From Gemmatimonadota bacterium (GTDB lineage Bacteria; 4572-55; J002): DNA of 24,123 bases. Made by a program: the position numbers and the translations under genes. Below the pieces are notes generated by a model that searched no databases, was not told where the DNA came from, and saw only the letters and a program-made list of their open reading frames with translations. The stretch is from positions 1 to 24,123 of the forward strand of contig RFFQ01000080.1 of the NCBI GenBank assembly GCA_003697105.1, given 5' to 3'. This document shows, piece by piece, positions 1 to 17,002 of the stretch (the stretch's first letter is position 1; the number at the start of each line of letters is the position of its first letter).

Positions 1-2
1 AA

Positions 3-47
3 AACTCAAGTAACTCGCAAAACTCATAAAACTCGTAAAACTCAAAA
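3..47 (+). repeat. Five tandem nonamers (AACTC-N4) directly before a start codon
   Basis: Five consecutive 9-bp units fill this stretch exactly: AACTCAAGT, AACTCGCAA, AACTCATAA, AACTCGTAA and AACTCAAAA. The last unit ends on the base before the ATG of the DUF58 gene. The units share AACTC and vary in the last four bases. No Shine-Dalgarno sequence is present in the visible 47 bp, so the array takes the place where a ribosome binding site would be expected. The array may extend beyond the left edge of the window. Confidence 0.85.
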
Positions 48-950
48 ATGATTCCGAAAGAACTGGTTCGCAAAATTCGCAAAATAGAGATTCGGACGAA
101 CCGGCTGGTGAATGATGTCCTTTCCGGGCAGTATCACAGTGTGTTTCAGGGGCAAGGCATTGAATTTGCCGAAGTCCGGGAGTATCAGCCGGGTGACGAT
201 ATCCGCTCGATTGACTGGAACGTGACGGCGCGAACGGGTCATCCGTTTATCAAGCGGTTCCATGAGGAACGGGAATTGACCGTGATGCTCCTTGTTGATG
301 CTAGTGCCTCGCACGATTTTGGTACCGCGAACCCGATCCACCCCGATGAAACACCAAAAACCAAACAAGAAATTGCTGCCGAGTTATGTGCGCTACTGGC
401 ATTTTCCGCTATCAAAAATAATGATAAAGTTGGGCTCATTATGTTTACCAATGAGGTGGAAAAGTATATCCCACCTAAAAAAGGACGGCAGCATGTATTG
501 CGTGTGATTCGGGAGGTGCTCTATTTCCAGCCAAAGTCCCGGCAGGGTAACATTAGTGTCGCACTGGAGTTTTTTAACCGAGTGACAACCCGCAGAAGTG
601 TAGCGTTTTTACTTTCGGATTTCATCGATCAGGGGTATGATAACGCGCTGAAAACGGCGAACCGGAAGCATGATTGTATCGCTATAACGGTCAATGACCC
701 GCGTGAAATTGAACTACCCAACGTCGGACTGATTGAGCTTGAAGACGCCGAAACCGGTGCTACGGCTCTTATTGATACCCGTTCTGCTACGTTTCGGGAG
801 CAGTACCGACAGCAGCAACTACGACGAATTGAGACCCGCAATGCTGTCTTGAAGCAATGCCGGGTCGATGCCATCCATATTGATACGGCTCAACCGTATG
901 TGGACCCCCTTGTGAAATTTTTTAGGATGCGTGCCGCACGTTTCCGTTGA
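48..950 (+). CDS. DUF58 domain protein with von Willebrand A-like fold
   Basis: This is a 300-residue protein of the DUF58 family, usually partnered with MoxR AAA ATPases; the biochemical role is poorly known and is thought to involve envelope or metal-cofactor protein maturation. The hallmark segment EVREYQPGDDIRSIDWN lies near residues 42-58. It is followed by a MIDAS-like DxSxS motif (D84, S86, S88 in VDASAS), the metal-binding signature of vWA domains. There is no signal peptide or membrane segment. The ATG at 48 gives the normal N-terminus for the family (IPKE...IEIRT), although no ribosome binding site precedes it. The transaldolase gene starts 35 bp downstream. A MoxR gene is in the window but about 17 kb away, so the partner is not adjacent on the visible side. 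The family assignment is secure; the function is inferred. Confidence 0.9.
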   Translation: MIPKELVRKIRKIEIRTNRLVNDVLSGQYHSVFQGQGIEFAEVREYQPGDDIRSIDWNVTARTGHPFIKRFHEERELTVMLLVDASASHDFGTANPIHPDETPKTKQEIAAELCALLAFSAIKNNDKVGLIMFTNEVEKYIPPKKGRQHVLRVIREVLYFQPKSRQGNISVALEFFNRVTTRRSVAFLLSDFIDQGYDNALKTANRKHDCIAITVNDPREIELPNVGLIELEDAETGATALIDTRSATFREQYRQQQLRRIETRNAVLKQCRVDAIHIDTAQPYVDPLVKFFRMRAARFR

Positions 951-12345: not shown

Positions 12346-13644
12346 TTAATTTCGATCCATAACCATCGAGCTTAGGGTGGCTTCGGCGACCAAGGCATCT
12401 TCAACATACGCTTTGGCTTCCATTACACAGACCCGCCGGCGCAGTTTGACCAGTTCCAGTTCTAGCCGGAGTTGATCGCCGGGCACGACCGGCTTGCGAA
12501 ATTTAACATTATCAAACTTGGTAAAGTAAACCAGATGTTTTTCGGGTTCAGGGAAACGGTTCAGGAACAGCACACCCCCGGCTTGACCCATTGCCTCAAT
12601 GATCAGGACACCGGGCATCACCGGTTGGCCGGGGAAATGCCCGTTAAAAAAGGGTTCATTAATGGTTACATTTTTAATGCCAACTACCCGATCCGTACTC
12701 ATTTCTACAATGCGATCTACCAGTAAAAACGGGTAGCGGTGCGGCATGATCTTTTCAATTTGGCGGATATCCATCACCGGTTGCCGGGTTTGTTCTTCTA
12801 GGGCTTTTTTTAGTACTTCCGTAAAGCGTGTATGGTTTGCGTGCCCACTCCGGGTTGCAATGACGTGCGCTTTCAGGGGGTTGCCCAGCAGAGTTAAATC
12901 GCCCACTAAATCCAGAATTTTGTGCCGTACAAACGAGTTATTTTCGTAGGGGAGGTCATCTTCATTCACTACGGAATCATCTCCAATAACGATAGCATTA
13001 CTTAATGACCCTCCTTTGATCAAGCCCATCTGTTTGAGTGGTTCAATATCCCGCATTAGGGCAAAAGTTTTGGATTTCATGATTTCGTTGATGAAATTTT
13101 CGGGGGTGATTTCGTAAGAGGCGAATTCGGTGCCGATCACCGGGTGATCATATTGGATGGTAAAGCTGATACGAAATCCATCGTGAGGCAAGGCGGTGAT
13201 TTGAACGCCATCCCCGTCCTGCAAATGGACGGGTTCTTTAAGGACATAATACTTGCGGGGGGCGTCCTGTTCAACAATTCCGGCTTTCTGAAAGCTTTGG
13301 ACGAACGGGTAGGAACTCCCATCGAGTTCTGGGGGTTCAAAACTATCCAATTCGACCAACAAATTATCAATACCTAGCGCCCGGGCGGCAGCGAGCAAGT
13401 GCTCTACGGTTTCCACTTCCGCGCCATCTTTGCGTAAAGTAGTACGGCGTGATACATCTTTGGGTTGAACTACATAATCAATTAATGCCGGAATTTCGAT
13501 CCGCTCCGGTAAATCAAGGCGAACAAATCGAATTCCAAAGTTGGGGGGGGCGGGTTTGAAGGTCACTTTGACCTCTTGACCAAAATGCAGACTAATGCCG
13601 CTATTGGATACCTCACGCCCGATGGTACATTGTTTTTCTCCCAT
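12346..13644 (-). CDS. lpxC-fabZ: LpxC-FabZ fusion: UDP-acyl-GlcNAc deacetylase and hydroxyacyl-ACP dehydratase
   Basis: The 432-residue protein joins two enzymes. Residues 1 to about 285 are LpxC, the zinc deacetylase that commits the cell to lipid A. The zinc ligands are His82 (TVEHLL), His241 and Asp245 (RHKILDLVGDL), and the general acid-base His268 is in TRSGHAN. Residues about 292-432 are FabZ, which dehydrates 3-hydroxyacyl-ACP in fatty acid elongation. Its active residues are His336 (NGHFPGQPVMPG) and Glu350 (IIEAMGQ). Both active sites are intact. The fusion places the two enzymes that compete for hydroxyacyl-ACP flux in one chain. It is known from Bacteroidota and relatives. The ATG at 13644 has a good ribosome binding site (AGGGAG). 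A C8 run near residues 32-34 is notable in an essential gene. lpxA follows after 82 bp. Confidence 0.95.
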   Translation of the reverse strand: MGEKQCTIGREVSNSGISLHFGQEVKVTFKPAPPNFGIRFVRLDLPERIEIPALIDYVVQPKDVSRRTTLRKDGAEVETVEHLLAAARALGIDNLLVELDSFEPPELDGSSYPFVQSFQKAGIVEQDAPRKYYVLKEPVHLQDGDGVQITALPHDGFRISFTIQYDHPVIGTEFASYEITPENFINEIMKSKTFALMRDIEPLKQMGLIKGGSLSNAIVIGDDSVVNEDDLPYENNSFVRHKILDLVGDLTLLGNPLKAHVIATRSGHANHTRFTEVLKKALEEQTRQPVMDIRQIEKIMPHRYPFLLVDRIVEMSTDRVVGIKNVTINEPFFNGHFPGQPVMPGVLIIEAMGQAGGVLFLNRFPEPEKHLVYFTKFDNVKFRKPVVPGDQLRLELELVKLRRRVCVMEAKAYVEDALVAEATLSSMVMDRN

Positions 13645-13691
13645 TGATTGTCTTTCTCCCTAAAAGTGAAAAGTCTCCTTTATAACACAAA

Positions 13692-13721
13692 AGATTCCAT
13701 CTCGCGGTGGAGATGGAATCT
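13692..13721 (-). terminator. Hairpin between ompH and lpxC-fabZ, weak terminator or attenuator
   Basis: A perfect 12-bp stem, AGATTCCATCTC and GAGATGGAATCT with a 6-base loop, lies in the 128-bp gap between ompH and lpxC. Read on the minus strand it is followed by only TTTT, so termination would be partial. It would reduce read-through from bamA-ompH into the lipid A genes, or act as a processing site. Confidence 0.55.
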
Positions 13722-13772
13722 AATGTAATTAAAATAAATCCGACTGTCAAACGTTATCGTGACCGGAGGGTA

Positions 13773-14414
13773 TTACGGCTTACCCGGATCGTTAAATTGG
13801 GTATCATCTTTAATTGGAAAATCATCTTTACGTTGGGGTTGGTCATCTTTAGGTTGATCTGGTTGTTGGGGGAGTTGACCAGCATCTTGAATAGCACTTT
13901 TATTCAAAAATTCTATTACTTGCGCCGTCAGATCAATTCCCGGAATGGCATAGACGATACCACTTTCCGAAATATCTAAAATCAAGGTATAATTTTGTTC
14001 CGCTCCGATTTGCTCCACCGCGTGGACAATCTTTTCCACCAAGGGGTTGGTGAATTCCACATTGCGCTGGTAGGCTTGTCCTTGCGGTCCCCAAATGTCT
14101 TCAATAAATTCTTGCAGTTCTTGCTCTTTTTGATCAATTTCCAGTTGTTTTTCCGCTTTACGCTCCTCACTCCACATAATAGCGGACTCCAACTCCTTTT
14201 TCATTTTCTCGATTTCTTTTTCGAGAGCCTTTGCTTGCTTTTCCCAATCAGCAAGTAACTGATTATACTGCTCCTCTGCGGTACGCCGCTCTTGCAGATT
14301 TTGCAAAATTTCCACCGAATTGATGTAACCAATTTTGACTTCCGCCCAAGCAAACGAACCCAGACCCAGAACAACAAGTAGGGTCACGCTCCAGATAAAA
14401 TGAAATTTATGCAT
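13773..14414 (-). CDS. ompH: OmpH/Skp-family periplasmic chaperone
   Basis: The 213-residue protein has a signal peptide (about residues 1-24, ending FAWA) and then the OmpH domain opening KIGYINSVEILQNL. A long charged coiled coil (about residues 45-105) forms the tentacle arms that hold unfolded outer-membrane proteins in the periplasm. The return strand (TLILDISESGIVYAIPGIDL) and a helix end the core at about residue 172. A C-terminal tail of about 40 residues rich in Pro, Gln, Asp and Lys extends past the normal family end and is probably disordered. It follows bamA, the usual partner gene, separated by 132 bp holding a heptamer repeat array. The ATG at 14414 has a weak, distant ribosome binding site (GAGGA). 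Confidence 0.9.
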   Translation of the reverse strand: MHKFHFIWSVTLLVVLGLGSFAWAEVKIGYINSVEILQNLQERRTAEEQYNQLLADWEKQAKALEKEIEKMKKELESAIMWSEERKAEKQLEIDQKEQELQEFIEDIWGPQGQAYQRNVEFTNPLVEKIVHAVEQIGAEQNYTLILDISESGIVYAIPGIDLTAQVIEFLNKSAIQDAGQLPQQPDQPKDDQPQRKDDFPIKDDTQFNDPGKP

Positions 14415-14439
14415 GATTATGTGTTCCTCTCTCTGTTTA

Positions 14440-14550
14440 GGGATTAGGGACTAGGATTTAGGGATTAGGGATCAGGGGTTAGGGGTTAGGGGCTAGGAAT
14501 TAGGGATCAATACAACTCCTAATCCCTGAACTCTAAATCCTAATCCCTAA
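14440..14550. repeat. Heptamer array in inverted arrangement (GGGATTA), forming a large hairpin
   Basis: Ten exact 7-bp units close to GGGATTA run head to tail at 14440-14509. After a 10-bp spacer, about four units of the reverse complement (TAATCCC, TGAACTC, TAAATCC, TAATCCC) run at 14520-14547. The two arms can pair into a long imperfect hairpin of about 30 bp in DNA or in the bamA-ompH transcript. The G-rich arm has many GGG or GGGG runs and might form a G-quadruplex on the + strand. The array reaches into bamA: the TAG stop (14547-14549) lies inside the last unit. No other copy was seen in the window. Confidence 0.9.
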
Positions 14551-16853
14551 AATGCCGTTCCAAAGATAAAGTGAGGTTCCCATTTTCCTCCAGATTGGTA
14601 GCGAATACCGTCCCAGTAATCATCTAATCCATAGGCGTAATCAAATCCAAGGGGTCCCATTGGAGTGATGATCCGAATCCCGAACCCGAGAGATCGTTTC
14701 AGCGTTCCGAAATCTACATCCACCAAATCATTCCAGGTGTAGCCCGCTTCGGCAAAGCCAACCAGATACAATTGGCTGGGAGCAACGGTGTAACGGGTTT
14801 CAGCACTGAAAATGCTCATAACTCGGCCTCCTTCCCGATATTCGTTGCCTTCGGGTACTAGCGAATAGTCGGGGTAGCCCCTTAGGCGATTACCGAGTAC
14901 GCCGCCTAGCTCAAAACGCTCATATACCGGTACTTCATCCGCACTTTTCAAGCCATTGATATAGCCGAACTTACCGTCAATTCCGAGAGACCATTTCCAC
15001 GGGAGTTCTGAATACCAACCGGTATTGAACAGATATTTTTGATATTTCACATCACCACCCAATGGTCCTCCAGCGTACTCTGCTGTAAGCGAGGTGCGGG
15101 ATCCACGTGAGGGTTGGTATGTATCATTCCGGCTGTCGCGGGATAAGGTGAGGCGGAAACTGTTACTCCGGCGTTTGCCTTCATAGTCAAATAGGTTTGT
15201 ACCGGTTTCCGGTGGGGTATAACCTTCTTCGACATCAATTTCCACATCTTCTAACCGGAATTGCCCGTAAATTGAGCTATAATCCAGCCACGGAAAGGGT
15301 CGTCCCGCGCGTAAGGCAAAACCGGTCGTGATTCGGTCATAATCTCCGTAATCGCGTAAGGTACGGAAAATATCGAATCCGGCAGAGGTGGGTGTATCCC
15401 ACAACCATGGTTCGGTAAAGCCAAATTCAACGTCCTGCCGGGTGCGTCCGAACTGCCAACGCAGGTTCAGCCGCTGGGAACGTCCAAATAAATTATTTTC
15501 AGCCAGTTCTAAGAAGCCGGTCACCCGATCTTGTGAGCTATAACCGGCACCGGCACTGATCGTTCCGGTACGCTTTTCTGCCACTCCAAAAAAGAGATCG
15601 ACCTCGCTTTCGCCCCCGCCCGGTCCAACAGTATTGACCGGTTGTAAATCAAATTGAAACTGAGTCTCATCAAAAAAGTTCAAGTATAAAATATCCCGTT
15701 GGCTGCGGATCACCTTTGACCGGTCGAAAATTTCACCGGGTAAGATGTTGATCTCCCGGCGTATCACTTTTTCGTACGTTTTGGTATTACCAGTAATAAC
15801 CACATTACGGACGCGTGCCGGTTCACCTTCATCAATGCGATAGGTCACGTGGATCACCCGACCTTCTACACGCTCATCTGGGATGATACTGGCAAAAATA
15901 TGTCCTTTATCGCTGTAAATTTCGTAATATTTTTGGATCGTCTCTTCAAACCGTTTTTGGTCAAAAATCTCACCGGTTTTATACTGGGTCACCATTTGCA
16001 GTTGGGATTTCGTGAACAGCTCGTTTCCATCCCAATCCACTTCACCAAAATAGAACCGCTCGCCTTCTTCCACGGTCACGGTGATCGTCATGTGGGCTAA
16101 GTCTTCATCATAGCCGATGGTATGCCCCACGACACGGGCGTTGATGTAACCCATCCGCCGGTAAAAATCGACGAGCCGTTCAAGATCGCTTTCTAACTGT
16201 GTTTCGTCCAGATAATGGGATTGGTACCAGCGCGTTTCTTTTGTGTCTTCAAATTGTTTGCGTAATTTTTTATCACTAAACGCGAGATTTCCTTCAAACT
16301 GGATCGTTTCGATCTTTACTTTTTTACCTTCGGTAATGTTGATTGTCAGCGGGGTACGCCCCTGTTCATCGGGCTCACCCATCTCATAATCGACTTTAGC
16401 GAGGAGATAGCCTTTTTCTTTGTACAATTCGAGGATGTTTCGGCGGCTGTTGTGGAGTTCCAGTGGGCTGAGGGGTTGTCCTTTGAGCAAGGTAAATTTA
16501 CTGTAGATGTCGCCATTGCCTATCTTTTTGTTGCCTTTTAATGTCACATCCCCCAATAACGGATGTTCTTCTACGGTAATAGTAAGGTGTACGCCATCTA
16601 AATCCAGTTCTTGATCGACTTGAATATCGTTAAACTGTCCGCGTTCATAGAGTTTGCGGATTGCGTCCTGTATCGCTTCGAGTCGAAATTCCTCTCCAAC
16701 TTTCAATCCTGAAATTGTGAGGATATACAGTTCATCCACGTTTGTATTCCCCTTGACTTCCAGCGAAGCGATAGGGTCCGCTAGCGTGCGGTTGAGCCCT
16801 CCCAGTATAAGAGTTGCCACAAACGTGACCATGAGAAGTTGCCAATATTTCAT
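14547..16853 (-). CDS. bamA: Outer membrane protein assembly factor BamA
   Basis: The 768-residue protein is the essential core of the BAM complex and inserts beta-barrel proteins into the outer membrane. A signal peptide (about 1-25) precedes five POTRA domains spanning about residues 27-430, each with the pattern of a paired helix and strand such as DAIRKLYERGQFNDIQVDQE. The 16-strand barrel fills about 435-768 and ends in Phe. The conserved loop-6 motif appears as LRGY (R658, G659, Y660), the equivalent of VRGF in E. coli. The final residues and stop codon run into a heptamer repeat. A strong sigma-70 promoter lies 58 bp upstream. The ATG at 16853 has no close ribosome binding site; AAGGA is 14 bases away. 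It heads the envelope gene run that continues through ompH, lpxC-fabZ and lpxA. Confidence 0.96.
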   Translation of the reverse strand: MKYWQLLMVTFVATLILGGLNRTLADPIASLEVKGNTNVDELYILTISGLKVGEEFRLEAIQDAIRKLYERGQFNDIQVDQELDLDGVHLTITVEEHPLLGDVTLKGNKKIGNGDIYSKFTLLKGQPLSPLELHNSRRNILELYKEKGYLLAKVDYEMGEPDEQGRTPLTINITEGKKVKIETIQFEGNLAFSDKKLRKQFEDTKETRWYQSHYLDETQLESDLERLVDFYRRMGYINARVVGHTIGYDEDLAHMTITVTVEEGERFYFGEVDWDGNELFTKSQLQMVTQYKTGEIFDQKRFEETIQKYYEIYSDKGHIFASIIPDERVEGRVIHVTYRIDEGEPARVRNVVITGNTKTYEKVIRREINILPGEIFDRSKVIRSQRDILYLNFFDETQFQFDLQPVNTVGPGGGESEVDLFFGVAEKRTGTISAGAGYSSQDRVTGFLELAENNLFGRSQRLNLRWQFGRTRQDVEFGFTEPWLWDTPTSAGFDIFRTLRDYGDYDRITTGFALRAGRPFPWLDYSSIYGQFRLEDVEIDVEEGYTPPETGTNLFDYEGKRRSNSFRLTLSRDSRNDTYQPSRGSRTSLTAEYAGGPLGGDVKYQKYLFNTGWYSELPWKWSLGIDGKFGYINGLKSADEVPVYERFELGGVLGNRLRGYPDYSLVPEGNEYREGGRVMSIFSAETRYTVAPSQLYLVGFAEAGYTWNDLVDVDFGTLKRSLGFGIRIITPMGPLGFDYAYGLDDYWDGIRYQSGGKWEPHFIFGTAF

Positions 16854-16917
16854 TGAGGTTTAATCAGTCCTTAAATAATCAAAACGCTAGAAATAATGCG
16901 GGTTAAAAGACCCCCTG

Positions 16918-16946
16918 AGTATAGGTGTGGGGGGATCGAATGTCAA
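16918..16946 (-). promoter_or_regulatory. Sigma-70-type promoter for bamA
   Basis: On the minus strand a perfect -35 TTGACA (16946-16941) is followed by a 17-bp spacer and TATACT (16923-16918), a five-of-six -10. Transcription would start near 16911, giving a leader of about 58 bases. A C5 run (16911-16915) and a G6 run (16929-16934) flank the -10 as a short inverted repeat. Confidence 0.85.
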
Positions 16947-17002
16947 GGTTTTTTGATTTTCAACCGCAGGTCTCCGTGAGAATGCACAGAAAATGCCGTA
17001 TT

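Follow-up and report, generated by a model that had tools for sequence, protein, structure and literature searches.

The heptamer palindrome between bamA and ompH

The spacer between bamA and ompH in the window (the whole stretch of 24,123 nt that was analysed, on contig C150 of G000, a draft genome totalling 4.18 Mb) raises the question of whether the palindrome it contains is a regulatory element dedicated to these two genes or a local copy of a more widespread repeat. The spacer is 132 bp long and mostly occupied by the arms and core of the palindrome (Table 1). The original prediction, made from the sequence alone, of a heptamer array with an inverted layout between the two genes was confirmed, with an array score of 82.5; the highest score elsewhere in the window was 13, and 100 dinucleotide-shuffled versions of the full window reached no more than 18. 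Both arms consist of tandem G-rich 7-nt units (at least two units being the criterion for an array). The predicted ten forward units were all present (TTAGGGA, TTAGGGA, CTAGGAT, TTAGGGA, TTAGGGA, TCAGGGG, TTAGGGG, TTAGGGG, CTAGGAA, and TTAGGGA), while the “about four” inverted units proved to be five (TTAGGGA, TTAGGAT, TTAGAGT, TCAGGGA, and TTAGGAG on the minus strand).

Table 1. Coordinates of the palindrome, the flanking genes, and a second repeat class in the window
Feature	Position	Strand	Description
Left arm	14437..14506	+	Ten units resembling TTAGGGA, G-rich on this strand; the bamA-ompH mRNA is C-rich here
Core/loop TCAATACAA	14507..14515	.	About 9–10 nt between the arms
Right arm	14516..14550	- (sense)	Five G-rich heptamers, covering and directly 3' of the bamA stop
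bamA stop TAG	14547..14549	-	Bases 2–4 of the heptamer at the outer end of the right arm (14544-14550)
bamA	14547..16853	-	Five POTRA domains and Omp85 (Pfam)
ompH/skp-like gene	13773..14414	-	Pfam match; 22 bp separate its start codon and the array
Octamer/nonamer repeats GAGTTNGG	1-48		Also present in the sampled parts of G000, as 29 merged arrays

The bamA stop codon does lie within the last unit of the array, as had been claimed, and the predicted protein ends in ...FIFGTAF*, such that the terminal Phe is intact. The two genes share a strand, and their co-transcription is plausible. Three further Omp85-like matches occur in G000 (C118:163-1722, C174:729-2330, and C136:5221-6339; 25–32% identity to BamA), and the Omp85 matches of a relative from the same class (G001) are distant (25–28% identity), so that G001 offers no junction comparable to the bamA-ompH spacer. 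The window also holds LpxC and FabZ fused as a single gene (12346-13644), a fusion without a match in G001, which may lack this route to lipid A.

Copy number in the genome and a second repeat class

A pattern search of G000 allowing ≤3 mismatches returned 64 hits in 23 clusters, so the array is not a single copy and the dispersed, multicopy nature suspected for it is borne out. The arrays adjoin unrelated genes and lie mostly in spacers, with 5 of 54 heptamer/octamer arrays intragenic; statistics for this genome are based on ~0.75 Mb of sampled stretches plus the array loci, part of which were chosen for holding arrays. Array lengths and ends differ among copies. Two heptamer arrays sit within long open frames (L079, 2579-2606; L088, 2452-2527), where several units are TCAGGGA or GCAGGGA variants that contain no TAG.

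A second abundant repeat class in G000 is the octamer/nonamer GAGTTNGG, which reads AACTCCCR on the opposite strand. Several contigs end inside this octamer repeat, which therefore probably breaks the assembly. Five composite elements join a TTAGGG arm and an octamer arm around a common core, GGTTCATGTAATTCCC, which was found five times in the genome with one mismatch allowed.

Distribution across bacteria and overlap with stop codons

Near-exact arrays of three units were present in 12 of 386 sampled genomes, and a palindromic pattern in which 24 bases were fixed found 63 matching stretches in named genomes, compared to a chance expectation of ~0.03 by our own estimate under uniform base use. 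The occurrence of palindromes of this heptamer in about a dozen phyla is new, and it extends a poorly studied repeat class, by pattern search, well beyond the source lineage, to which the class is likewise extended here. Hosts include Bacteroidota, Chloroflexota, Planctomycetota, Alphaproteobacteria, Gemmatimonadota, one cyanobacterium, Nitrospirota, Firmicutes, Armatimonadetes, Acidobacteria, Kiritimatiellae, and candidate phyla. Viral carriers were considered and set aside, with only 4 palindromic matches among 2.9 million contigs. Searching with the pattern read backwards does not provide a null control, since reversal of TTAGGGA yields the identical repeat in a shifted phase.

The original prediction had proposed mapping such arrays relative to stop codons. 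Among the 42 palindromes from named genomes that were scored, 33 were within 20 bp of a stop codon and 22 overlapped one. The genes flanking the scored palindromes were aligned (n = 22), convergent (n = 14), or divergent (n = 4). The commonest overlap had the same offset as at bamA (-4), or lay one or two units further in, which makes the bamA case typical. In the consensus repeat, a stop occurs in every frame each 21 nt on both strands; each consensus heptamer holds a TAG that closes any entering frame within ~21 nt, and for this reason the array supplies the bamA stop. The overlap at bamA needs no special explanation.

Comparison with known repeat classes

Cyanobacterial tandem heptanucleotides (Calothrix; cited in PMC4692102) share with the array the placement of 7-nt tandem units in spacers, but they have other units and an inverted layout is not one of their defining features. 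REP/BIME elements are, like the array, multicopy extragenic palindromes that follow genes, whereas the arms here are tandem heptamers of variable length that lack a conserved REP sequence, and no RAYT gene above the cut-off accompanied them in G000 or G228. The closest likeness is to the G-rich heptamers GGGAATC of Xanthomonas and GGGGA(T/C)T of Nostoc PCC 7120 (Rehm et al. 2015, PMC4692102), which bears out the cyanobacterial resemblance noted originally. Those repeats are dispersed, mostly intergenic, and under-represented between divergent genes, form convergent inverted pairs (70 in Xcc and 75 in Xac), overlap stop codons, and place the G-rich strand in sense after stops and in antisense before starts (PMC4692102). 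The G000 repeats agree in being 7-nt, G-rich, dispersed, and mostly non-coding, in their convergent inverted pairs and stop overlap, and in strand preference. They differ in a more degenerate unit, TTAGGGA/TCAGGGA (GGGATTA/GGGATCA), that does not match GGGNATC or GGGGA(T/C)T, and in also pairing with GAGTTGGG octamers. Since the unit sequence differs, the array is assigned to the wider G-rich heptamer kind and not to the named Xanthomonas or Nostoc subclasses. The TAACTGA heptamers of Beggiatoaceae, Cyanobacteria, and Bacteroidetes, patchily distributed across phyla, are also intergenic and near starts, contain stops in all frames, and overlap upstream stop codons, but they have another unit that is not G-rich and are nearly always direct, with a single indirect repeat reported (PMC4679880). 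Among known RNA families, an Rfam 15 search of 13600-17000 yielded no match.

Orientation of the arrays relative to genes

Arrays close to genes had a marked polarity. With gene edges taken from a simple codon-model gene caller of our own, for which starts are approximate, and with the two arms of a pair not being independent, the G-rich strand pointed away from the gene in 28 of the 32 G000 arrays within 20 bp of an edge. The octamers shared the outward polarity of the heptamers (18/19 and 10/13, respectively), though the G000 heptamers reach significance only together with the octamers and G228, a genome from another phylum with 85 pattern hits; the remaining four arms in G000 ran inward. 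All 14 near-edge arrays in G228 pointed outward. Divided by edge type, outward to inward counts were 9:3 at starts and 21:5 at stops in G000, and 5:0 and 9:0 in G228. Beyond 20 bp from a gene edge polarity was unbiased. In spacers flanked by convergent genes, which have no ribosome-binding site to spare, the ratio was 6:0 outward, such that a need to keep G-rich sequence away from start codons may explain only part of the polarity.

The same polarity was seen in pairs. Where two heptamer arrays lay close together in the sampled G000 and G228 DNA, they were convergent (G..C) in 12 cases and divergent in none, divergent pairs were likewise absent from the named loci, and an exact-pattern control across 13 genomes gave 6 convergent compared to 1 divergent. 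The array in the window conforms, being antisense 22 bp before ompH and sense over the bamA stop, within the ≤50 bp of a start or stop used for the strand comparison. This outward G-rich strand at gene edges, in G000 and in an unrelated phylum, is a new observation; it shows that something non-random, either selection or the mechanism of origin, governs how arrays are oriented, and suggests that the strand preference of the class amounts to a single outward rule at gene edges. The rule also makes the origin of the arrays testable through comparison of strains.

Origin and possible function

Overall, the array is probably one copy of a dispersed G-rich heptamer class, and any influence on mRNA would be no more than generic. 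G-rich heptamer arrays, here with the unit TTAGGGA, build up in short spacers at gene ends, and those adjoining a gene edge have the G-rich strand directed away from the gene. Where both edges of a spacer carry outward arrays, a G..C palindrome results, as at bamA-ompH. The bamA-ompH mRNA would be expected to carry a long intercistronic hairpin lacking a U-tract, and any effects would most likely be generic, namely protection of RNA 3' ends, spacing, and mild effects on readthrough. Copy number, layout, the orientation rule, the stop overlap, and a predicted hairpin are established by the analysis, while we infer near-neutral persistence at gene ends and no locus-specific regulation; bamA-ompH itself no longer calls for a special mechanism.

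A MITE- or REP-like palindrome mobilised by a transposase, in line with the mobile miniature repeat that the original prediction had offered as an option, appears unlikely as a general account, though some palindromes, those with identical cores, may have been transposed. The five copies of GGTTCATGTAATTCCC in G000 speak for whole-element copying, as do repeated cores in two other groups. Eight G228 palindromes (L185, L190, L197, L201, L210, L213, L216, and L219) share a similar core of 16–28 nt, typically CTAGTAAGAAAGAAGAGCTTTTGCTAA, in both orientations, and by this likeness look like copied elements; an identical core of 24–28 nt recurs at several G228 loci. A AGAGCGCTCT-like core between heptamer arms recurs in seven palindromes of Chloroflexota (L122, L140, L151, L156, L163, L167, and L171) and crosses genera, occurring in Promineifilum and in an Ardenticatenia MAG. 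Against mobilisation, no transposase family tracks with the palindromes that share identical cores in G000 and G228, and a search for Y1_Tnp (RAYT-type) transposases returned one fragment below the cut-off near a contig edge in G000 and none in G228 (68% complete). Array lengths vary freely, and lengths and ends differ between copies in place of the fixed terminal inverted repeats of a MITE. Homology of the window core, TCAATACAA, to the five-copy composite core was considered and rejected, with 30% of shuffles matching as well, so that sharing of the core is not detectable at bamA-ompH.

The original prediction favoured an mRNA hairpin that sets the BamA:OmpH ratio. Selection on such an intercistronic hairpin, acting through stabilisation of the bamA 3' end or attenuation of ompH, is quite improbable, and a locus-specific switch is disfavoured. 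The fold itself is strong: the sense-strand RNA of the array has a predicted energy of -47.9 kcal/mol (z -5.3; none of 200 shuffles folded as well), and the array lies in an apparent two-gene unit, in which bamA is preceded by a promoter-like site and ompH is followed by a terminator-like one (13721-13692). However, arrays adjoin many unrelated genes at the 23 places in G000, and no intrinsic terminator was called at the array, where the hairpin has no T run or U-tract. The arms of the palindromes also show no sign of co-variation, a new observation, since in four genome groups (4–9 palindromes each) own arms paired no better than swapped arms, and in G228 they paired worse. The composite elements, in addition, combine a 7-nt arm and an 8-nt arm, which is likewise new.

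A G-quadruplex element, in which folding of at least four G-tracts, in DNA or in RNA, would influence transcription, is very unlikely. Such an effect on transcription has been proposed for the Xanthomonas/Nostoc heptamer class, and similar oligonucleotides fold in vitro, but the authors were unable to assign the class a part in gene regulation (PMC4692102). The left arm has a canonical motif on the plus strand only. The bamA-ompH transcript contains no G3 G4 motif at the array, leaving the template DNA strand alone able to fold, and many G000 copies have GGA interruptions.

Interstitial telomeric repeats of eukaryotes provide a precedent for the addition of repeats at breaks followed by end joining. 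An equivalent in bacteria, with G-rich repeat added by a hypothetical enzyme to the 3' ends at a break in a spacer before the ends are joined, would give outward G strands and G..C palindromes, cover starts and stops with one rule, and account for the 12 convergent compared to 0 divergent pairs and for the unlike 7-nt and 8-nt arms of one element, but with polarity unbiased beyond 20 bp and with identical cores at several loci pointing to copying of whole elements, it is the least probable of these explanations. The broader proposition, that telomere-like bacterial repeats have the G-rich strand running 3' outward at any gene edge in a manner that fits end-extension at breaks across phyla, is a comparably long shot; if true, bacteria of many phyla would have an active equivalent of interstitial telomeric repeats.
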